NCBI GenBank assembly: GCA_034190875.2
Contig: CM067354.1
Coordinates: 3,288,385-3,352,384, forward strand
Length of the DNA: 64,000 bases
DNA from: Urechis unicinctus
Lineage: Eukaryota > Annelida > Polychaeta > Xenopneusta > Urechidae
Direction: 5' to 3'
The translations under genes were made by a program, and so were the position numbers. Of the stretch, positions 1 through 56,562 are shown one piece after another (position 1 is the first letter of the stretch; each line of letters starts with the position of its first letter). The notes under the pieces were generated by a model. That model ran no database searches and was not told where the DNA came from. It saw only the letters and a program-made list of their open reading frames with translations.

Positions 1-330
1 TGCCACACCTGACACTTACGCAGGTATGTAATTCTCCCTTACTTGTTAATAAATGATGGCATGTATGTTATAAATAAATAATTTTTGTTTCAGCTGTCTG
101 GGTAAATCTATGTTTGCCAGCAATCATGTAGAGACATTGAAATATCTCTCCGCCACACAATACAAGCTGATGAAATTGGGTCAATACATTTTCATAGCAA
201 CGGTGAGCTGATCCCCGATATTGCATCCAACTGTATGCCAACTAGAGTACTATTGTATTGGTGCATGCCTTATTAGTCAATGGACATTACTGGCTGGAAT
301 TAGATATAACTTACGTGGAAAACTGACACT
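1..330 (+). repeat. Partial copy of the right-arm repeat at the window edge
   Basis: This stretch matches 37260-37575 in the same orientation. Shared phrases include CAGGTATGTAATTCTCCC, GTAGAGACA, TTGCATCCAACT and TTATTAGTCAATG. It covers both the part found only in the right arm (37262-37487) and the start of the part shared by both arms (matching 8820-8938 inverted). The match begins at base 1, so the repeat probably continues upstream of the window. It contains no ORF of note. Confidence 0.8.
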
Positions 331-2235
331 ATATATACATACAAAGAGCACATGCATAAATAACATTAAAAGGAAATAATGGGTAATTAAAGCTGTAAGG
401 ATGTAGTAAAGTGCTATTTGGTAATTGTGAGCAACCAACATCGATTACAATTGATCTGCTGATTCGCTCCAGTGGATGTATTGCGAACCCATGGCGATGT
501 TATGGCAAATCTAATGAGTCCGTTTACCCCGATTGTAACCACCGAGACAGCATCAATACTCATATATAGACTGCCTAGAATATGTATTAAATAGCGATAT
601 AGGAAAAGCAACACGCAGTGCACATGTGGCTTGCACAGACAAATCGTTATACCCGACACATGTCAGCACGTGATAATTCGGACGCATTGGACATCTAAAT
701 AATGACTATTATCGCGCCATTTCTTCGTTGTTGTGCCGTGCGTGTTTCTGCATGGCTCGGTTCACTGGTCGAGTTTATTGTCAGATATATTTTTTCTAAT
801 ATGATAGTAAGGAGCTACTAAGGATATGATGTCCAGCTGACAGTCGTTTCAATTGTTATCATAATAAACCTGAGTTCAAGCACAGTACAGACTGTAGTTT
901 GGTACCTGCATGTTGCATTGTTGCACAGAAGCAACAATTGTGGGCGGTTTTTTTATATCACAAAACGAGTTTCCTTAAAATGTGTAATAGTTGAAATTTC
1001 CCTTCTCAAAAAGAGAGTGAAAACGTTCTGTGGTATTAAGAAATGTCGCACCGGTTCCCTGGTAACACACTTTCTACTCTATAAATCTACCTTAATGATC
1101 TCGGGGAATACGTTTACACGATAAATAGGTCTTTGCTTGCCGAATAATAGCAGACATCTGCGTGTTACAGATGGTGCGTTTTCCGTGAAGTCATGCGGGC
1201 GCTAGACGCACATAAGATGCTACATACAGAGGGAGAGACTTCGTCGGCATGGATGTCGAATCAAATGATCAATGTTAAACCAGTTAAATCAATATTGAAA
1301 ACAATTGAGATACGGCTCATCAAATGTAATATCGGTTCCCTGATATTGTTTTCAGCAAACCGAACGAAAATATACGAACTATTGTATTAATAGTTAAGTA
1401 CTGGGGATTGCGGACTGTGCCGAAAATGGTGCAGGCACACCACAATATCACAAAATCTTTCAATCGTTGGTGCACAGTTGATATTCGTTTTGGTGCACGA
1501 TGAATAATAGCTTAATAAATTATACACGCACCATGCAAATGCAATTTACGCCATTTTGTAGATTGCGAAGTTACAGCTTTATGACCAGAATAGTCATCCC
1601 TCGCATCTCTAATGTTGGTGATATTTTTAGCATGAGCACTTCTTCTTGTGTGGCTAGGTACTTAACTTTCAAAATCCACCATACGAGACTTTGGTGGCTG
1701 AATTTTTAACGGGCTGCTATAAACAAGTTTTGCCTTACAATTGCGATTTGAGCGGTGTGCCGTTTGTACATCAAACCGAATAATTCATTGGTGACCTTCG
1801 CTAAGCGCCTTCCGTGGAGCTGCAATTTATCTTCAGTCCGATTGGACGTGTTGACAGCCTTACCGGTTGACGTGGAGATATATTTATCTGCGCTAGATGT
1901 ACGTGTCCTGATATATATCTACGGTCAAATTAGAGGTTTCTTAAACCACGGATTTCAATATTTGATTAATAATACTCAATGCTTTTTAGATGCCGTATAT
2001 TGATGGTATCTGACCACGCAGAAGTCAGATATAACAGAAGCCTATTTTCTGTGACGGGTTTCTTACCTGTTTTTTTTTACCTAGGGCACTTAGCCATAAT
2101 TGACAGAATTCACGAAAGTGACATTTATTTTACTTCATTAATCAATTATGGTGAGGAACAACAGAACTAATTAAGTAACTACTTACAATAATCATTTTCA
2201 TGCTCTTGTCTTGTTGATCAAGACAGATTCAGCTA
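331..2235. other. Intergenic, nothing recognised
   Basis: AT-rich sequence with only short ORFs of 60-82 codons. None shows a domain motif or splice-supported extension. I see no RNA gene, tandem array or long inverted repeat. Confidence 0.5.
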
Positions 2236-2303
2236 CTTATATACCACATAATAAGTATTCAGTTCAATTCTTATATACCACATAATAATTATTCAGTTCA
2301 ATA
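2236..2303 (+). repeat. Two-copy 34-bp tandem repeat
   Basis: Two adjacent copies of a 34-bp unit beginning CTTATATACCACATAATAA, at 2236-2269 and 2270-2303, differ by a few bases. This is a simple local duplication with no coding potential. Confidence 0.85.
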
Positions 2304-2699
2304 CTTTAGACAATACAGTATGTGATAGTGACTTGCATCGCAATTGTGCTACGTTTAGTATCGAGGTCTACAACCACGCTACGAGTAAATGAAAATACGT
2401 GTGGGTTTGTGGCAATGATCTATTCAATCCATGAATGATAAATAATGATTTTTTGCAATAAGGAGGTATCTTTCTATTTGTCAGCGTCGCACAAGAGCCG
2501 ATCTATCTTACCCAAGTACTCCGTTCAGTTAAACGCGCAGCGTTCATATTGTGATAGTTTGAAGGCATGACGTCGATTACATGCAGATAATAGCGACCTC
2601 CTTCCAATCATATTCAGGAGTATGTGGATGCGCTTTGGTACGATTATTCTGATGTCGCATTTATTTGCAATACAGAATTAAGGTAGTAATGTTTTAGAA

Positions 2700-3085
2700 T
2701 TTAGTTCCATGATCAATGGAACAATTGCTGTTCAGGCAGGTTAAACTATACCGCTTGAATAGAGAAGATCCTGCGTTACAAGGGACAGGCATTTCAAGCT
2801 ACGATCGATCTCCATGCGTGTCTGGAATAGCAATAGGGGCCTTCATTCTCGGGTTTCCGTCGTGGCCGTTAGGAGGGCCACCGTCGCGCACAGCGATTTT
2901 TACCGGAACTTGGGGCATGTTTCGTTGCCTGTCAAGTTATCAACGCTTTGTTCATGCTTTATCAGTTGCTGTTTTAAGTTCATGCGTTGTTGCGCGCATT
3001 CTTGAAGCGTGTTTGATCATATAGGTCGCCGAAGGTATCAAGCGTATTCTGAACTTCGCTTAAGTTCATCTGAAAGCTTTCGCGT
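2700..3085 (-). pseudogene. Possible transposase N-terminal relic (coiled coil plus HTH-like)
   Basis: This patch is richer in GC than its surroundings. On the minus strand, two frames joined by a shift near 3005 read as a coiled-coil-like stretch (MNLSEVQNTLDTFGDLYDQ, then LQECAQQRMNLKQQLIKHEQ) followed by SVDNLTGNETCPKFR. That layout resembles the leader before the helix-turn-helix of THAP/PIF-type (DDE_4) transposases, where a leucine-rich coil precedes 'D..KF.TG'. About 100 bp further on, LVTQDLLYSSGIV is weakly like the HTH motif. Stops and frame changes mean nothing is intact. An unrelated open stretch by chance is a real alternative. Confidence 0.2.
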
Positions 3086-4969
3086 CGCAATGAGTACGTT
3101 TTAAACAGTTTTTTGAAACACAGAGATTATCAAAAGTAGTGATCCAAAATGTTGCCAACTACATTCATCTCCAGTCGTCTGGAGAGTATTCTGCAAGAAC
3201 ATCAGAATTCACCCGATATCATTTCGAAATTAGTGTGCGTGACTGTTGCTACACAATGCCATCACTGTCCCCGTCTTAGTGAAAAGTACCCCAGCTGCAA
3301 ACTTTCCTCAAATATAGCGAATCCCTTGTTCGAGTTATACGAAAACTGAGCTCGTACAATTAGTAAGAAATGCCTGCAACACCATAAATATTTACAATGA
3401 ATGAAGAACTATTAGCATAGAAGGCCAGCAAGTCAATTTCCAAGATCTTAACAAACATTCTGCATGACAGGCCAACATGTCAAGCGCATCTGAGATTACT
3501 GATGACCAAATACAAATGTAGTTCTAGCAGGGTGGTGTCCTAGACCGAGCCACCATACAATGTACATATCTGGTACCATAAAGTCTGCTGGATGTGAGTG
3601 CACAGGGTAATTCTTAATTTATATAATTAGAATATTTAACTTTAAAAAGTTGAATGCAGATATATCACACATCTCATTTATATGTATAATTGCCTATGAA
3701 GACTTGCTGGTAAAATATTTACTTTGCGTTTTGTTTAATGTGGTGTGTTCGTTTGGTGGAAGAGAGATAAAAAGTTTCTAATTCATTTTCTCATCTTGCT
3801 TTGCAGAGATGATGGTGGTTGCAAACATGATGTGACCATGATTTTTGACTTCAATACCAATGCATAATCTAATCGAGCATTACCGCCTGATGAAGAGACA
3901 CATCGCACGGCTTGTCGCCTTGATTATTTTGATGTCTGGCAATTGCAATTACACAGTCGATATACTTGTCACGTCAGTAATACAACTGACGGAAACTCGA
4001 GAAAGAGGAAGAAAGCTTCCCAATTGTTCGTCTGATCAATAACACGTCTTGATGCGCAAGGGGCGCGATAAACAATGTCTTGGTCTCCTTAACAATGACA
4101 AGGGGTTAATCTTCTATATGATACCACCCACACAGCATAATCTGTAAAATGCCAGCAACTGACGAATTTGATTTGTAGCACTTTCTGACATTTTCTCAAC
4201 AATGCTGACGAAGATAATTGTCACAATTATTGGCGTAGTGATACTTCTATACGGTATTTACCACGCTTCTGGCGTTCTCACTGGCTGACCCCATAATCAT
4301 TGTTAACTTGTACCCATCTAGTGCAGACCATTCGGCAATTCTGTCTATTACATGGCCTTTTGAAAGTCCATTAGCTCATTTACGACGGGTCGTACGAAAT
4401 TAGTTTCCATTGCTTATATCATTCAGCTTCTTAAATTAAAACCGAGATAAGTTAGAGCAATAGTGCAGGAAAATGATAAAATGAGCATGAGTAGTTATTT
4501 GACTAAGTTATTAGTCGTCGGCTAATCTTTGTATGCAACGTTTGATGGCTGTTTTTTAGGCGCCGACGCGAACAAATGGTCAATGAATCAAACGTAGAAA
4601 TCAGAAATCGAGGGGATTTATATTTCTAGAAGAACACTCAGTGAATTTTATTCATATTATATTACTGTCAGCATGTTTTTTTTCTAAGCATTAGAGCATT
4701 TCTCTGTGACACAATTATAGCTAGTGGTGGTGGCAGTTACTGCATCAATAGACATGCATATTTACAGGACGTTTGCATATTGAGCTGATGATGATGGTGA
4801 CGGACAAACAAGGTGATTTTTCTAAACATCGATGATAGGTATAAACCTGTGAATAGATATTAATTCGCTACTCCTCTTGTACTTTGCCCAAAAAAATAAA
4901 CATTAACTGAAGAGTAAAATGTACATAAATAAATGTCCTGGAACAGGCAAAGCAGCAAGTAAATACTCA
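3086..4969. other. Intergenic, nothing recognised
   Basis: AT-rich sequence with short ORFs only. I see no domain motifs, tandem repeats or structured elements. Nothing clearly matches the 37.6-39.6 kb interval, although the sequence on both sides is co-linear with the right-hand duplicate. Confidence 0.5.
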
Positions 4970-7008
4970 GCGTTGATAAAACGACCAGTGAGTGTGCCCG
5001 ACATATGCAAGCACATACACTTCTGACAACACAATTCAAGATTTTAGCCAAGACGAATTGTTAAAATAGCGCTGACATTTGCGAGATGTAAGGCACAGCT
5101 GATCAATAACATTTATACTCGAATAAGCTTGACTACAATCAAGTGACATATAAGGCTGCAAATTGCTCATTCAATGCCATACTGGCTCAGGTGATTGCCA
5201 TTATACGAGGAAGTATCAATGCACCAATAGGGATGCAAGACGGTAAACACAGCACCCTGTGAATGTCAAACTACTTATAGTACTGCTCTTGGCTTAATCA
5301 TAGATCTGATGTACATCTCGAGCCCCCATCTTTGTCCCCTTGGGCGTTATATGCGAATAAAAATGTTCCCACAGTTGCAAACCAATAGAAAGAAAATGAT
5401 GTTCCTGCATCTAGGTTCACATTGAGAGTCCACATCTAAAGTCACATGCAGAGTGAAATACTGGTTTACGACCAGCACTTTATCACTATCTGGAGAAGGT
5501 CTTCCTGAAACATTTGCAACATTCTTTGTGATTGACAACCTAATTTTCCGGATAATGTTCATCTGATCCACACATACACGGGTTAATATTTCCAAATAAA
5601 GCATCCATGATAATTTCACCAATCTTCAACATGTTTGTCATTCTGAACTATTCAACCGATAGTACAGCATGCTGACAATTGATTAAAGTCAGTTAACGTA
5701 CACACCACCTGCTAGATACGATGACACTAGATTCTAGTCAACCACGTGAGAAATAGTAGAAAATATTCATGCCAACATCCGCAAAAGACCACGTCTCCCC
5801 ATTAGCACATAACAAGGCTTGCGTGGTAGATTTTATAAGCTAAATACCGCCCTATGATGAGATTATCTTCTTTGACAATAATATGACCGTAACAATAAAA
5901 AATTCCAAATGTTTATAGTAAGCAGACAAATAATTACCAAATTAGTGCGATATCTGGATGTAAAGAGCATGTCGTTCTTTAAACCTCTTTTGCACTGGAG
6001 CCAATTAGAGGGCACAGGCTATGAGTAATGGATCGATGTAAAATCACTGCCTGGCTCATGGAACAACAATAGATAACAACTTTACAATACCTTCCAGATG
6101 TCAGCAAGAAACGACTTTATGCCCAATTGTACCTCATTAGCGCCTGACAAAAAAAAACACTCCTCAATATTGTAAACGCAGCTATAAATCACCACAGCTG
6201 CTCTGGGCTCGAGCCTTTAATAACTTTTAGGGTGAAGGTGTCCTCCTATTGTGCGAGAAATCTCATTCAGTGCTCAGGATTCTATTCGCACCCTGGCAAA
6301 AAAGGTTGAAGAGAACCACTGCATTGTGTGAAGAATAAACAATACTTAACAAAAGAGAACCGATTAATTGTCTTTTGTTAATGTAAAGATCTGGCATCAC
6401 AATGGTGTGTGCATAGATTATGACTTATATTTCACCAAACCCTCTTAAGCTCTAGCGAACGAGCTTTTGGAATATGAAAGCAAAAGAGAGGTATATCACA
6501 TATACTTGCAATATACGGAAAACGTGTTTATATGTACCCTAAAAACCCCCCATACACTTACAATCGCACACGGGTTAATTAAATGACGCGTCTAATGTTA
6601 CTGAATTAAAAAAAAATCAATGGCCTATTACTCATGGGTTGGATCATACACTTTATTCATCGTTACAATAATATTGCTGTTGTCATTAATGATCTTGGTA
6701 TGCCGTTTCACTGCTTGATACTGACGTTATATACTCTATTTGTCAGTAAACAAGCTTTGGATAAACAGGCGCTGAATGGCAAACAATGAGAATTGGATTG
6801 AAATTTGCTATTTGTATATGCCAAACAATACAAAACGCTGAACTTATACCAATAGCTGAAAAACGTTCGTGTTTTAACTATTCAGTATATTTTGTGACAT
6901 GCAGCACCCATGCAATCAGTTTTGATTAAAAACTAGGTTTATTTTGCCTCGCCTATTCTTCATGCGAGAATTTTGTCTTAATTTTGGGCAAAGTGTCCGA
7001 AACGTTAA
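4970..7008 (+). repeat. Block A, left copy of a 2-kb direct repeat
   Basis: It is co-linear and in the same orientation as 39610-41582. Matching phrases include GCACATACAC, GGAAGTATCAATGCACCAATAG, GGGCACAGGCTATGAGTA, AATCGCACACGGGTTAATTAAATGA and TTAATTTTGGGCAAAG. Divergence is noticeable and there are many indels; the right copy has about 150 bp extra near 41262-41405. There are no credible genes. It ends exactly where left arm B begins (7007-7010). Confidence 0.85.
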
Positions 7009-7629
7009 CACTCAATGTAGACACTTCATTACATTGTGTTGCCTCGCCATACTCTTGTAGTGGTAAGTGTAACTCCGTGATAGAATGATGCATAGAACGA
7101 AAGCGATCAGAGAATTAACCAATAGAAGGGCAGGGAAAGATGACCAATGTTCAACGCTTGACGGTAAATAAAACATGAACAAACTTACGGAAATCGAGTT
7201 GATAGATTGGCATCTACCCCAGACAATGATCAATGGACCTATAATAAAGCAAACTGAATTCCTTAATTGTCTGGCGCACATACTGATTGTTACCATTGTT
7301 TGCACGCTGCAGCCATAACACAAGTAACAAGGCTACGTCCGCACGGCTTGATTAATCGAGGGAATCGTTGCACCCGCACATAGCATGCCGTCGATCCTAA
7401 GTGTTGTGTCGTTCTGTCCAGTGACATAAGAGCCGGTAGCCGAGGTGGAAAGAACTAAATTGAGTAAATAGAGAGTGAGAGAAACCGAGAAAAAGACAGG
7501 AGAGTACAGAGGTCACATTTTGACTTATGCCCATCCAACCTCCCGTTTCTCGTTGCTATACAAGGATCGGTTTGTCATTGTATTACAATTATATAACATT
7601 GCGGTGCTTTATTCATGTTACGATTGCTC

Positions 7630-8012
7630 CATAACCATCTTAGGTGCAGAAATACCCTCACAGTAAAATGTTACCGTACTTGTTGCTCTAAGGTAACAAC
7701 CAACCAGGACATATTCAGGTGAGGTCGGAGAGTGGTGTTATCGTTTCCGATGAATTCTTTGATCATATCCATAAAGAAATGTCATACTTTGCTAATTATG
7801 CGGACATCGTCATAATTATTGCGACAGTCTTTTTAGTCATACATCCGTTATTATCATAGCTTGCGAATGATAATAGCAACTGCCACAATTATTTGAATCG
7901 TTTTCCAATCAGTTAACATGGGTTGATGAAATATAGAACAAATTATGTCTGCAATCACAAGGTTTTTAAAATATGTTACTGTACATATATGGCTGAGTTC
8001 AGAAAGAGAACT
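7630..8012. other. Left-arm-only segment of about 380 bp
   Basis: The right arm joins directly across this interval, between ATGTTACGATTGCTC on the outer side and GCGTTGGAAAAGGGTAC on the inner side. It is therefore an insertion in the left arm or a deletion in the right. No terminal repeats or ORFs explain it. Confidence 0.65.
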
Positions 8013-8938
8013 GGGACTTGCGTTGGAAAAGGGTACTTTATGTGGTATATTGGGGAGTAAAACAATCGGTCGATTATTCGTGGTATCAAGTTGCGACAGA
8101 CATGCAAAATAGATATCGCTTGTTTTAAATGGATCTGTTAGGCCTGCAGTACAAATGCTGCCCCAAAGAAAAAGAATTCAGCATTTTTTAACACAAAATG
8201 AAAGTGATTGGGATAACAGAGATTAGAACTTTGAGCAGGATTCTATAAACAACTGGGGTAAACATTGGAACAGTTGAAAGAGAGTTTGCGTAACACAACG
8301 CTGTGTAATAAATCTAGTGCGGCGCCAGGGGCGGAGGTGCGAGGGGCTGGCACTTTGCATTGTACGTATAACGCAATAGTAAGAAGTGGTATTTTGACCA
8401 AGTTGAGCTACAGCGATGCAAACGCATGGGTACGGTTGTTTGCATCATTAGTAAAGAAGGACGTGGAATATTGCCATTTCTTGCAGTATATGGCATATAA
8501 GAGGTTTGTGTAATTAGTCAATGTGTCACAATTGCGCATATTTAGTGAGGTAATTACAACATATTACCGTCCAATAACTCGAACCAATTAATAGACACAT
8601 GTTGCAAATGGAGCCCATCCCTGTACCATTCTTTAAACACAAAATTACAATTTTTGTTTATTCTTCATTTATATTGGAAAGGTGAATTCGTAATGAAGCG
8701 CTTGAATCAAACCTCTAATTCATACTGAAACTTACTTGTTTCAGTTCAGTGTATTAATTATTATTTGCTGCTTCCGGGATTTAGAGGCCTGATAACCCCT
8801 TTAAATATATGTATACAAGGCATTAGTGATTGTTATTTGCGGTAGTGTAACAACGTGTCAGCCGCAGTATCCACGCAGTCAAATTCCAGCCATGCCAGTC
8901 ATTGACTAATAAGAAATGCATCAATGCAATAGTTCCCT

Positions 8939-49989: not shown

Positions 49990-52196
49990 ATTTAATGCGT
50001 ACAATTGATTCAATGGAGAGTACAATAAGAAATAAGGGCAGTCATCTATTATACCATGCAAGCGTATTATACCATGCAAGCGAAACTGTGAAGAATTAAG
50101 CGCCAAACCAATGAACTGCAGTGTGATAATTATAAAAAAATCATCAAACAGATGAAATAGAAATTGCTTTCTTACAGAAGAGATGTTCATTGAACAGAAA
50201 AATGCTCTTCAATTAAACCTTCGTCTGTAATACGAATATAACATCCTAAATAGCTGTTGTACAACAGATTTTACTCAATGCATGCACACCGCGGCCGACA
50301 GCATGGCATCGACGTTGATCTGACTAGCTTTTCAGTGGGATATTATGACCAAATTACTAATGCAATGTCTACCTTGCAATGCAGTGTCCGTACTAGACCA
50401 CATTCATTTTACAGAAGATCTGTACAATTATTTATACCGTCTCCAAGGCGCTGTTGATCTAATGCAAAGTATCTATGAATATATTACAACGACAGCACAA
50501 TGGAATTCACTTCGCACTTATGTGTTACGGATAAAATAATAGTTGATGTGATCTATTATTGCACGACGCCAGCACAATGTTATATGATGATAATTGTGTT
50601 AGCAGGCCAATACCTACGGCATCAATTTCAGCTGAATATAACCTAAAAAGGGAACAATCTGATAGGTCATATTTATGTATCCCTTCGTATTAATCCTTTC
50701 AAGCATTTGATGCGGACAGCTGTCATATCCACACGCTTGGATGATAAATTATTGTAATCATTTATGAATCAGCAATGCATTTATTTGGAATCAAGGTTTG
50801 TTTGCGTTATTTTAGACTTTATTAAAGACTGACTCATATGTAAAGCTGAAGCGTCACAAGCACGACCTACACTAGCAAACTCCACCACCTGAACCTAGAA
50901 CCTTACATTTCACTGACAACAAATCGATCCATCAACACATATCAAATGAATCGCATGGTATCTTCCAATCTTGCAGCAGCAGATGTACCATCATTTGATT
51001 GTAATTTACCTTTATCTGAAATACTTAACTGCGTCTGTTTTTGTTTGGCTTATTGACTCCATACATGTTCTTATCGATTGCCATAAAGTCTTCCGTGTTA
51101 AGAAGACGGACATTGCCTGTCGTAATTCAAATCGATATTATGTGTCGCAAATATTAAACAAGAAATCATCGACCATTATCGGACATACACCTCAGTATTT
51201 TACCACTAAAAATACAAGTACATACGCGTAATGACTCTTTGATGTGAGCACATATAGCGCGTATTTTACAGGTAACAAAAACGAATGTTCAGAAATACCA
51301 GGCGAATGAAAGTGGTGAAAGGGGATGGGCCGATGTATGATAAGGGAGAATTTGCACCGACCAAGCTCACAACTACCGCCGTAATGTAATATGTATGCTA
51401 GCGTTCAACAGTGACATAATTTCATAGCATCATGACTTCATGTATGCCATCCACCAAGCTCTTGTATCACGCTGTATCTATCCCTCTTAGATGATATATT
51501 GATCACTGAACTATGTGCTTCAAGTCTGAGCCCAGTGAAATCGAGGCTGAATGCCAAGAGCTGTACCATCTTGTGAAATTCTGCCCACTCGACATCTGTA
51601 TATTATATGGCAATGTTCATAATTTGTGTCCTATAATCATATGCAAAATAAGGGAGTGAACATTCCAAGGTCCACACCATGCATTGTAATACTTTTATTC
51701 ATGTCAATTTTTAGATAAATTGAATTCTATCTGCATTCAAACGTTCACATTATTGTGTGATAGATTTCGTCTCGTTGTACCCTTTATAGTCGTTTCAGCA
51801 CCTCACTCCAAATAGGAGAGGGCATATGATGCAAATACATTAGCTCAGATGAGCCTTTGATTGAATCTTTCAGCACTCAAAGATTTCAGACGATGTAATA
51901 AGAGAGAAGTCGTGAATCATATTTCCTAATTTAATGTGATGAGCTTATTTAGCTGGCCGGACTTTCAGACGTTATTTAATTTGTAATCAGTCAGTGTGAT
52001 TTGAAAAATGTCGTTACATAACAGGTACAAGAAATAATAGGTCTCTGATTTGAGATATGATTTCGTTGCACAATTCTTTTTGTGATAGCAAACATTTTAA
52101 TTAACTGTCATGTCTCTTACCTTCCTATTCTCCAATACTATGAATATAAATCAACTAAGAACTGAAACTTTGGCAAACTCTTATGTATCTGACGAC
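49990..52196. other. Intergenic; one perfect 18-bp tandem pair
   Basis: At 50047-50082 the 18-mer TATTATACCATGCAAGCG occurs twice in perfect tandem. Otherwise AT-rich sequence with no gene, RNA or element recognised. Confidence 0.5.
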
Positions 52197-52425
52197 TTAA
52201 AGATGCATTTTTTCAAAAAAATGACATGCTGTTTTTTTGCTCCATTTAATAGAACAACTCTTTTGGAACCCATATAAACCATTTTGCGGACTAGTTCAAC
52301 GCTATATCGTCGATTACACCGTATCGAAATCTGTCGGCCACACCCATGTTTACAAACATGAGCACATGTCGATGGGAAAATGACGCATGCGTATTGAAGG
52401 GTCATTTGTTGACAACACATAGTCG

Positions 52426-52433
52426 TGACGTCA
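52426..52433 (+). promoter_or_regulatory. CRE palindrome upstream of the second ballast gene
   Basis: TGACGTCA in the context CGTGACGTCACGCGC, with an NRF1-like GACGCATGCGT 43 bp upstream. An ATG followed directly by a GTGAGT splice donor lies at 52479, so this looks like a housekeeping-style promoter and first exon. Confidence 0.45.
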
Positions 52434-52478
52434 CGCGCAGCGCAGATTCGACAGAAGGTTGAAACGCATGCAGCCGAA

Positions 52479-54277
52479 ATGGTGAGTGTTTTGATTCCTA
52501 CATTTCTCTTCTTTGTTCTTCTTTGATTGGAGTTTTCGAATGTTATATATAAAAAAGAACCCGCCTCAATAAAGTGGACACTATCGGTACAATAGATTAC
52601 CATAAATTTAACAACAGATAGCGTTACACCTGCGAACGAACCATGAGGTAGCCCTTAGGCTTAGACTTAGTATATTATATTTATACTGAGGCTGCGCATG
52701 TTCAAGCGTAATAAAAACGATATTCTTGACTAGTCTTTTACGTTTTGAGTGTAAAGCCATGACACTTGTTCGAAGTTTGATTATTTCATATGCAATTATC
52801 GGTGCTTTTTCATCGCAAACTATTAGAATATCCCTGAATGAACTCATAAATTGTATTATAAATCAAGGGACTGGGGTCTCCCTCAGGACGTCTACCTTAT
52901 CTGGTTATAGTGAACTGAAACAGGGATTTGAATTGGCTGGCCAGTCGCTATCTTCTATGCATACATAAACCCTACAGAGAAGATAACGGCCAGCCAATGC
53001 AAATCCCTGTGTACTGAAACGTCCACGCTAGGAGTTTGGGGTGGTATGTATCATCGTATGGGTTTGGCTGACTTTTGCAGGCTTTTGGCTCAAACACTGT
53101 AACATTATTGATTGAATTATTCTTGTCATGTTCATTCATTGATTAAATTGAACCAACCCACTTTCAAATTTAAAGGAAATCAAAACGCCAAGGAGGGGAT
53201 CACGTACAAGAAGAGGCAGTGGAAGGGGTCATTGTACAGATTCTGACGTGTGTGGAACCGAGGTTGGTTCCTTTTTTATTTGATTCTTATCAAGGGTATT
53301 TTATTGAACTCAATACACCCATTATGACTGGGAAGGATGTGTTTAATGATTTGAAATTGTTCACCATGACACAGGTGTCCAAGTTGGTGGAGGTTGCAGA
53401 CAAGCCTGAAGGGGTGGCAGAGGAGCGCCACCTTCTTCAAACAAGGTACTTTTGGGCCTGCCTTACCTAATTGAATCACTTAGTCTGTAATAGGTCCAAT
53501 GTTGAACTATCGAACCATAAATTTCCATTGGTTCTCATTTGTTTGTAGACCTCGACAGGCCGAAAGCGAGTCAATCATGTTCGCAGAGGCTACCTTTGCA
53601 ACACACCAATAACTAACCAGACCCTACAGCAGAGTAGAGTGACTGCTAAATCTTTAGAGCTGTCACAGAAGGAGAAATTGAAGGTATTGTACAACTCAAC
53701 ATTTAGCACTCTTCAGCTGCTCCAAAAACCTTCATGAAATTTTTGTCACAGAGAGAGATTTGTATTGGAGATATTCAATCCATCAAAATGAAGACTTTTG
53801 ATTACTCATATTTTCAGAATTTAGTGCGGTGGCTGGATTTGGATGGGGTGGGTCAGTTGCTGGTTAGAAAGACAGCCACAGTTTGCGCTTACAATCACCC
53901 TACAACCCACACCGCCGAAAGAAGGGATTCCACCCTCCATCAACTACCACTTCCCCAGACTGTTGCATCTGCCTTCACTGTAGGGAAATGCCTCCCCCTG
54001 TGGAGCGGCAATGTTGCACTAACAGCCCAGACTTCTGCACATATGCACTACCTCAGATGGAAGGAGTTGTGCTTGACCTGATGGTCATTGAGGTTATTAA
54101 CAGGTACCGGGTGGACTTGCTATGGGATGCGGTTGTCGAGGACCAAAAAAATGATGCTTAGACACCACGCCTATCAGCAATTGGTTCTGTGGATTCATGT
54201 ATTTTGGAGGAGTGCAACAGGAGGGTAACTCTAGTTGTGTAAGGGAGATCAGAGACCTCTTCCTTAACAAGTATTGA
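52479..54277 (+). pseudogene. P2X7-type 'ballast' zinc-domain gene, second locus, frameshifted
   Basis: The domain lies at about 53950-54277. It reads PDCCICLHCREMPPPVE then RQCCTN, followed by VVLDLMV, and, after a one-base shift at an A7 run (54147-54153), LRHHAYQQLVLWI. Two further shifts give RVTL and SSCVREIRDLF. These are the CxCxxCxxMP, CC, AYRQF and PSCVV..IR..FP signatures of the family. Unlike the first locus, the Cys-rich and AYRQF parts are not split by an intron. Candidate upstream exons are the ATG at 52479 with its GTGAGT donor, 53176-53262 (basic, TPRRGSRTRRGSGRG), 53375-53445 and 53549-53683 (fully open, RKRVNHVRRGYLCN), but their phases do not all agree. At least three frame breaks in the domain mean this copy is inactive unless the sequence has errors. 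Confidence 0.7.
52921..53009. repeat. Palindromic hairpin in the ballast gene intron
   Basis: CAGGGATTTGAATTGGCTGG at 52921 pairs with CCAGCCAATGCAAATCCCTG ending at 53009, and the arms continue inwards to TATCTTCT/AGAAGATA. The loop is about 21 nt. It may be a small MITE nested in the transposon or a structural RNA hairpin. Confidence 0.7.
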
Positions 54278-54768
54278 CAGTATAGAGGCTTAATACAAAA
54301 TAGGTTTTGGTTATATACTAAGTCTAAATTTTTTAATTTTAATCCAGAAATATCACATTGTTCTGATTGGTATTTTTGTGTGGATTATAAATTGCTTAGT
54401 CTTACAAAACGTGGTATTATTTGTTCTGAACATTTTTACTTCAACAATCTGATAACTTATTGTCTATTTGTTTTATGGAATGAGCATTCATATAATAGTA
54501 AATTTTTCGTCTCTCAAACACAGAAGAAAAGAATTATGCACACATTATTTTGTCAATTAGTCATGACACTTATCTTCAGATTTGACTTTTTATGTTCATA
54601 ATTCTAGCCCTGATAAAAAAAGAAGTGACATTAAAATGAGTTCATGTATTATTTATTTGCCAATTACATGTGTTCTTCTATTACAGTTTGGATTTACAGA
54701 CAAAAGAATGTGACTAATAAAATATTTGTACATTTCAACAAAAACAAATTTCCAAATCATATTTTTAA
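54278..54768. other. AT-rich tail between the two converging genes
   Basis: Very AT-rich, with short ORFs and no domain. It separates the last ballast motif from the last exon of the minus-strand gene. In the first locus the equivalent gap is only about 9 bp, so sequence was lost there or gained here. Confidence 0.5.
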
Positions 54769-55639
54769 TCAAAATGAGACTCCTGCAACTGTTTCTTGGG
54801 TAGATGGCCTGGCACAGGAGCAATGTTCAAACTGATTTTGCGGGGTCATCAGCAGAGCGTTGTGGGTGTTGTTGTGATTGCTGTCGCATTGCTTGGGCCT
54901 AAAGATTTCTGTCATCATATCTGGTATATGGGCATAAGTCTTGACCTCTAAACCGAAGACCACGTCTTTGACTGCTTGTTGAAGCGATTGCTGTACCTGT
55001 AACACAACAAATGGCATTATATGGCCAAATAGCTAGAACACATTACATGTGCAGCATCAGTATTTTGTTTTCTGATAGGACATTTAGTCAGTGCGTAGTT
55101 GAGTGGTCATGAGAGGCTTACATTGGCTGACCAACCCTACTTGAGTGCATATGTCCCATCCCTATACCTGTTGTGGTTCATTGTCACAACTTGACTGCAG
55201 GCAAGGTATGATGAACACCTGATCACCAGCCATTGAATTAGCCTTATTAGGGTCAAGAGGATGCAATAATTTCTCTACCTGAAATTTACAAATTAAGTAA
55301 GGTATGTTTGCAACAACAATCTACAAATCTAAATGGTCAATGAACTCACAATAGGCCCTTAGATTTTATTTAATCGGTGACATTTACACAAGTCGATTCA
55401 ATACAGACCGATTCGATAGCAGGGTATTCATCTGTTCATAATACAACGAGATTAATTACATGTCCAGCAAAAACTTTGCAGCTTCTTCGTTGGTCACACT
55501 TCCCTGAATGCGTATCTTAAGACACCCTCGTGTAAGACCGCAGCTGGTCTAGCTCCCGCTTCCTTCTCTTAGTTGTTGAATCTATTAACAGCTTCTTTCT
55601 CCCTCCACCTTTTCTTCGTTTCTTGGTTTGACCGTCCAT
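54769..55639 (-). CDS. Three-exon gene of unknown function, partner of the second ballast gene
   Basis: Predicted exons on the minus strand are 55639-55526 (38 codons), 55278-55168 (37 codons) and 54996-54769 (75 codons plus stop). All three introns/exons are in phase 0 and each exon is fully open, giving about 150 residues. The start is the ATG of MDGQTKKRRKGGGRKK, a strongly basic, nuclear-localisation-like N-terminus. Exon 2 carries KLLHPLDPNKAN, and exon 3 starts VQQSLQQAVKDVV and ends with TPQNQFEHCSCARP. The donor after exon 1 (GTGTCT) is weak. An alternative frame past it reads SVTNEEAAKFLLD, which resembles the N-terminal part of the transposase-like family seen in the first locus. 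I do not recognise the protein. It is probably the second gene, or a remnant of the transposase gene, of the TTAA element. Confidence 0.45.
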
Positions 55640-55919
55640 TATCGCAATGAAAATAGCGCCAACTAAACACCCGCCGGCGGCAATCGGCACAGAGTGATGA
55701 CGTTTCTGCGCATCCGGAATTAATAATACATGAGCTTCCAAATATGGTCTATTCTTGGCTGGAAGTGAAAAATAAGGAATTGAAGGTTTATTTACGAACA
55801 ACAAGAAATATATACGGCCATTCCAACTTTGGAATCCGGATATCAGCACCATTTAGGGTACTCTTGGAGTTAGCAACTTTTTTTTTCGATTCGATTTTTT
55901 GAAAAAAATGCACCTTTAA

Positions 55920-56171
55920 CAATATCCGCCATCACTGTAGTTTTGTCTACATTTTCGTAACATTTTCACCTGTCGTTTTACCTGCCTATCCGAAGCAGTT
56001 TATCATTTATTATGCTCGATAGTGGTCAAATAAAGTCTTTCTATATGTAAATAACTCCAACACACCACCCAACGCAATTACACACCATACATTGCGTCAG
56101 GCGCCGCTCAAGATTGAACAGGCGTTTACGCTTGTTGCAAGGAGCGTCTTCGGGCGAGCAGCATTGTAGAC
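55920..56171. other. Intergenic with a YY1-like site
   Basis: ATATCCGCCATCAC directly outside the transposon end (55922) includes a CCGCCAT YY1-like motif. Nothing else is recognised. Confidence 0.35.
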
Positions 56172-56562
56172 GGTGGGGTAAGTAATTATTTGGCAGGCCA
56201 GTAGAAAGTAGCATCAATCGAATTTGGTTGCGTATTCGTGTCCACAACCCAATGTTAGTTATTCAGTTCATGTTACTGGAGTTGTGCGCTGGAACTGATT
56301 GCTAATGTGCTCGTCCGAATATCCAGTGCCCTCTCCTATTGTGCTATGCGGTTATTTTTGAGTCTGGTGGGGTAAGTTATTATTTGGCAGGCCAGTATAA
56401 AGTAGCATAAATCGAATTTGGTAGCGTATTCGTGACCACAACCCAATGTTAGTTATTCAGTTCATGTTACTGGAGTTTTACGCTGGAACTGATTGCTAAT
56501 GTGCTCGTCCGAATAACCAGTGCCCTCTCCAATTGGGCTATGCGGTTATTTTTGAGTCTGGT
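56172..56562 (-). repeat. Two tandem 194-bp units with tRNA-like A box (SINE-like)
   Basis: Units start at 56172 and 56366 (GGTGGGGTAAGT) and are about 95 percent identical. On the minus strand each contains ACCGCATAGCCCAATTGGAG or a close variant, which fits a pol III A box (TAGC..A.T.GG). A weak B-box-like CAGTTCCAGCG follows about 48 nt later, then a non-tRNA tail of about 110 bp. This is the layout of tRNA-derived SINEs. The tRNA fold is poor and no poly-A tail is seen, so the origin is tentative; the tandem duplication itself is certain. Confidence 0.6.

Follow-up and report, generated by a model that had tools for sequence, protein, structure and literature searches.

A probable non-autonomous Kolobok transposon carrying a decayed P2X7 ballast gene in the genome of Urechis unicinctus

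Transposons of the Kol0 lineage of Kolobok carry a gene, KolX, whose product is similar to residues 476-595 of P2X7 and adopts its cytoplasmic ballast fold, as described in the available text of Kojima & Bao 2022 (PMC9587614). According to the same text, P2X7 originated when a P2X4-like gene fused with KolX, and nanor is likely another domesticated KolX; the idea that P2X7 captured its ballast from a transposon is already in print since 2022. It also gives two features by which Kolobok elements are recognised, namely ends obeying the rule RR...YY, which separates them from piggyBac, and a DDE transposase with C/DxxH between the second D and the E, where almost all Kolobok lineages also have a zinc finger. 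PMC7016195 proposes the capture of an ancient ballast domain, and the strings 'transpos' and 'mobile' are absent from its main text. Here we describe an element at 52197-55919 of a 64,000-nucleotide stretch of Urechis unicinctus contig CM067354.1; this whole stretch is called the window below. We are highly confident that the element belongs, as a single copy, to a recently active family of non-autonomous Kolobok transposons that is Kol0-like in bearing KolX and in which KolX is dead. It adds one more example, a decayed one, to what was described in 2022.

Boundaries and copies of the element

A repeat search and the comparison of copies placed a DNA transposon at 52197-55919, with TTAA on either edge. 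The inverted arms, 52197-52222 on the plus strand and 55894-55919 on the minus strand, are 26 nucleotides (nt) long with the TTAA included, are 88% complementary and are spaced 3671 nt apart. The left arm consists of the TTAA at 52197-52200 followed by an end that begins AG, and the right arm of an end that closes with CT followed by the TTAA at 55916-55919; these terminal bases are found in the window and in its copies. A first-pass annotation made from the letters of the window had proposed TTAA edges and inverted ends, and both were borne out, with the ends common to at least 25 other near-full-length places.

These places were found by searching the animal's own genome (1,190,315,542 bases in 926 contigs) with window 52150-55970 as query and scoring the best 40 of 1300 candidates. 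Each of the at least 25 places besides the window was a single match at 94-99% identity. In query coordinates the left TTAA lies at 48-51 and the right TTAA at 3767-3770. Matches ended at 3760-3776 in all 25 places and began at 46-51 in 24 of them, so that similarity stopped at the TTAA, as the annotation had proposed to check, except in one match that began at 29, about 19 bases further to the left.

Both ends of the top 20 near-full-length copies were then compared together with the window, giving 21 copies. The right TTAA was present in all 21 and the left TTAA in 20 (19 by a motif script and C8:5897998, which has one differing base in its end and was read by eye), and the flanks were unrelated among the copies. 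Boundaries that fall at the same TTAA while the flanks differ mark the element as a transposon. Within the KolX region, divergence among the 21 copies was 1.5% on average and 4.4% at most, a low value that points to a recent spread of the family.

Two further repeats were seen in and beside the element. A palindrome at window 52920-53010 has 23-nt arms that are 96% complementary and 45 nt apart, and an inverted self-match is also present in other copies. Immediately to the right of the element, window 56172-56326 and 56366-56520 form a direct repeat of 155 nt that is 95% identical.

KolX and transposase remnants within the element

The ballast profile PF20478 (P2RX7_C) matched the open reading frame (ORF) at 53868-54161 (E 2e-5, 25.0 bits against a cut-off of 23.5). 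The first-pass annotation had read a P2X7-like signature here running from a cysteine motif through AYRQ to SCV..IRDLF. The profile match agrees with this, but the frame is broken: SSCVREIRDLF is readable only in a frame different from that of the matching ORF, and AYRQ is in no open frame of the window. Relatives have AYQQ (L021, L026) or AYRQ (L009, L013), where L numbers denote loci of the same genome. The window frame reaches a stop 67 codons past DCCICLHC. The two halves of the gene are separated in 21/21 family copies by a gap of 4 bases, as aligned with L026 and L021. Frames could be read in 21 of the 23 sequences compared (L086 and L087 lacked a match to the start pattern); counted from where the cysteine motif begins, the stop came after 65-95 codons in the 19 readable family copies and after 121 in L021. 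The window KolX gene is a pseudogene, and the lesions common to all 21 aligned copies show that the break was inherited.

The layout of the gene, on the plus strand, was read from profile matches, frame readings and matches to L015 (4686-5362 on its minus strand; G000:C11 near 36.191 Mb), a KolX copy without introns. An upstream exon remnant lies at 53201-53281 (limits approximate) and a middle exon remnant at 53626-53761, with a GT next to it at 53762; both match L015. The interval 53762-53958 is a GT...AG intron, and the last exon, 53959-54277, holds the ballast domain (PF20478) and is broken by the frame change and stop. Blocks separated in L009, in L013 and in the window adjoin one another in L015, by which comparison KolX is spliced; on the simplest reading L015 is probably a processed copy of the spliced KolX mRNA.

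On the minus strand the element holds only the two termini of a transposase and no intact transposase of its own. The C-terminal remnant, at 54787-55010, was found by tblastn with a piece of L009 and the N-terminal remnant, at 55459-55647, with a piece of L013. Against the L009 element, the window element is without about 2793-3037 and 3092-4606, and a short island between them is kept; the scar of these two deletions, which removed the transposase core, lies at 55241-55316 (limits approximate). L021, L025 and L026 align through the deletion junction in one block, as does L020 with a further loss adjoining, and therefore the core deletion predates the recent spread. A search for the ballast profile and for transposases in copies, proposed at the outset, yielded PF20478 matches and a transposase in longer relatives, but in the window copy the transposase core is deleted.

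Longer relatives, pairing and selection

One longer relative, L012, is a TTAA-flanked element at 205-7008 of its locus with an end sequence of its own and an intact KolX. On the opposite strand to KolX it encodes a transposase with the motifs GDGRSDSPG, VVTDAHPQI, DVWH, HFWFCC and HTGLLENFN in this order. Pieces of this transposase align with an uncharacterised protein of Apostichopus japonicus (P0033) and with P0030 of Diadema setosum. L009 and L013 carry corresponding transposase pieces, and both have the window's ends. A DDE transposase with C/DxxH was found in L012 and L013 and is absent from the window copy; the placing of the catalytic residues, and of HFWFCC as part of the zinc finger, is our own reading of the alignment. 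Since the transposase core is gone and KolX is broken in the window element while its longer relatives have Kolobok features, the element is classed as a non-autonomous Kolobok whose KolX is dead. An open frame upstream of KolX in L012 (5936-6553, minus strand), also present in L010 and L011, is rich in closely spaced cysteines (CRCKGQCVRRCPCKKNGTNCSTRCFCKVKFC) and matched nothing in Pfam at E <= 1; it is perhaps an N-terminal part of KolX in the L012 family.

The identity of the ballast domain is clearest in the intact relatives. PF20478 has at least 150 places in the genome (the best 150 of 2592 candidates were scored), and it matched L009 with E 2.6e-30 (106.2 bits) and L012 with E 2.1e-28. 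Intact relatives also matched P2X7 chains in the PDB by sequence (E 4.2e-18 and 2.2e-16). P0001, which has 52% identity to the L009 domain, was modelled with a mean predicted local distance difference test (pLDDT) score of 78.4, and the PDB matches of its predicted fold at E <= 0.001 were all P2X7 (14/14), with a query-normalised template modelling (TM) score of 0.49-0.53. The named proteins related to this KolX belong to Mytilus, Crassostrea, Littorina and Lineus.

Pairing of the two genes was assessed from both sides. Twenty ballast loci of 10 kb were fetched, comprising the 16 best PF20478 places, two more good matches and two members of a group that is abundant and scores low, and 17 of them matched transposase pieces from L009 and L013. 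The remaining three were L027, with a weaker match to P0030, L028, with the same repeat unit as L027, and L015, with none. From the other side, nine of the 26 transposase loci at >=45% identity had a listed KolX within 5 kb, and all nine pairs were convergent (tail to tail). This count compared 29 of 115 transposase matches (one for each of the 26 loci and three weaker ones) with 70 of 150 KolX matches. With all 29 included, 11 were paired, again all convergent, where 0.017 pairs were expected by chance; at least two of the three weaker matches had already been seen near KolX, and 9/26 is the figure quoted for that reason. A strict scan for end pairs found TTAA pairs in 7 of the 20 fetched loci, one of which (L017) is an inner pair of a different kind.

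Several of these loci have features of their own. In L017 the inner TTAA pair, at 5397-8105, has inverted ends (AGTGCCTATCGCACG) and perhaps marks another element that lies nested within the KolX-bearing one. L014 3137-6578 is a TTAA-edged deletion derivative of the L012 family in which the KolX frame is open and the transposase core is missing. L027 3401-7149 and L028 represent a third TTAA-edged family, with ends AGATC...GATCT. Its minus strand encodes a THAP domain (PF05485, E 3.2e-5) and its plus strand a last exon of KolX; L028 holds tandem repeats of the unit, which is about 3.75 kb long.

Selection on the KolX exon was measured as the ratio of nonsynonymous to synonymous substitution rates (dN/dS). 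In an analysis of five of the extracted exons, values were 0.11 (L001-L017), 0.23 (L002-L018) and 0.32 (L001-L005); a further comparison gave 0.13 for L002-L004. When one partner was a deleted element compared with its closest long relative, dN/dS was 0.50 (L021-L001) and 0.72 (L014-L004), based on no more than 21 and 11 substitutions respectively; the remaining four pairs that include L021 or L014 gave 0.13-0.39. Conserved PSC-motif residues are lost in L021 and L014. These values hint at relaxed constraint on KolX of deleted elements, with counts too small to serve as a test. Together the alignments suggest that KolX genes are intact and under constraint in longer elements and broken or relaxed in deleted ones.

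From family knowledge and the anatomy of the elements a route of movement can be proposed. A transposase supplied by a longer relative would recognise and bind the inverted ends, excise the element and insert it at a TTAA, which would be duplicated. The window family would move in trans, contributing its ends and cargo only and no working transposase or KolX, and in autonomous relatives KolX would probably act as a zinc-binding helper of transposition.

Alternative readings and known systems

A number of observations weigh against the classification of the element as a Kol0-like Kolobok. One copy among the 21 (C1:781223-784946) has TAAA in place of the left TTAA. No empty site was found when the joined flanks of 20 copies (C8:5897998 omitted) were matched to 29 sequences, each longer than 3 kb and totalling 291 kb, a small sample that says little and returned only the window's self-match. 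Seventeen of the 26 transposase loci lack a listed KolX nearby. Pfam gave no Kolobok match, and the L012 transposase matched PF20700 (Mutator-like) with E 5e-4 and 19.5 bits against a cut-off of 26.5, about level with an implausible match to Stereocilin. The window copy differs from Kol0 in having no transposase core and a broken KolX, and its membership of the Kol0 branch is putative. PF20700 is also carried by P0030. Pfam matches below their cut-offs to Ig_TMEM132_4th, DUF7205, GAAD, DUF3097_N, Stereocilin, DUF7573, Penaeidin, PH_fung_RdRP and Baculo_gp41 were taken as chance. At C1:781223-784946, a flank stretch of about 40 bases beginning TTAAC is present on either side of the copy.

It is possible, and in our judgement unlikely, that an ancestral Kolobok acquired KolX from its host, which would reverse the direction of transfer. 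Ballast genes range from sponges to vertebrates, some with conserved neighbours, as reported in the available text of PMC7016195, and this distribution fits an old host gene; however, the best ballast loci in this genome sit with transposase pieces (17/20 fetched), and PMC9587614, as far as its available text goes, argues that the transposon was the source. The first-pass annotation had raised capture of the domain by a P2X gene, and a passage from transposon to P2X7 is beyond what the window sequence alone supports. The P2X receptor profile PF00864 matched 15 times at exon level; these matches form four clusters, every one on C15 (15.86, 48.03, 48.04 and 66.67 Mb), and among the best 150 of 2592 PF20478 candidates none had coordinates within 4 Mb of these clusters, suggesting a genome without a P2X-ballast fusion.

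We consider it very improbable that KolX elements lacking the transposase core (the window lineage, L021 and L014) persist through a selectable function of KolX, such as that of a cis-acting helper. The layout is common to elements about 75-99% alike, which speaks for such a function, but KolX is broken in 21/21 copies of the expanded family, and both the raised dN/dS of L021 and L014 and their lost PSC-motif residues argue against it. A piggyBac-type transposon, from the other superfamily with TTAA targets, shares the target and was rejected as hardly credible on end bases, cysteines and transposase motifs. The ends AG...CT obey the RR...YY rule of Kolobok, the relatives have the seven cysteines most of which piggyBac proteins lack (both points after the available text of PMC9587614), no piggyBac transposase family appeared among the Pfam matches of the ORFs scanned, which were not all ORFs, and a Kolobok-type enzyme is present in L009 and L013, elements with the window's ends. 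That the copies are a duplicated P2X7-like host gene family and no transposon is next to impossible: PF20478 matches are numerous and one other family is in tandem (L028), but the copies end at the same TTAA with flanks that are unrelated, similarity into the flanks was not seen in most copies, and the gene is broken in 21/21 copies while the repeat is intact.

The interpretation of the first-pass annotation, that a TTAA-flanked transposon carries the ballast domain, is supported at the level of the family by dispersed copies with TTAA ends, by ballast identity from profile, sequence and a relative's predicted fold, and by the Kolobok-type transposase beside the ballast gene in longer relatives. 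With many copies and clear ends, the family is an independent illustration of the published proposal that the zinc-binding P2X7 ballast began as a Kolobok protein. Mollusc proteins annotated as 'P2X purinoceptor 7-like', among them P0002 from Mytilus californianus and P0003 from Crassostrea virginica, may be KolX and not receptors. The families here, with intact constrained genes beside broken or relaxed ones, are material for asking what the role of KolX is.

Three known systems bear comparison with the non-autonomous Kolobok described here. The cytoplasmic ballast of P2X7 (PF20478; PDB 6u9v, 9e3m, 9e3q) is like the intact relatives in sequence and predicted fold, and differs in that KolX elements have no receptor part. 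KolobokP belongs to the same superfamily and is common in molluscs according to the available text of PMC9587614; it was set aside because its long terminal direct repeats were not found in 51601-56520, where 20 of 21 direct-repeat families were listed. The Kol0 lineage of Kojima & Bao 2022 (PMC9587614), as characterised in that same text, is matched by the TTAA target and RR...YY ends of the window family, by the DDE transposase with DxxH in longer relatives, and by a second gene with ballast similarity, KolX, recognised by PF20478 in the relatives and, in broken form, in the window.
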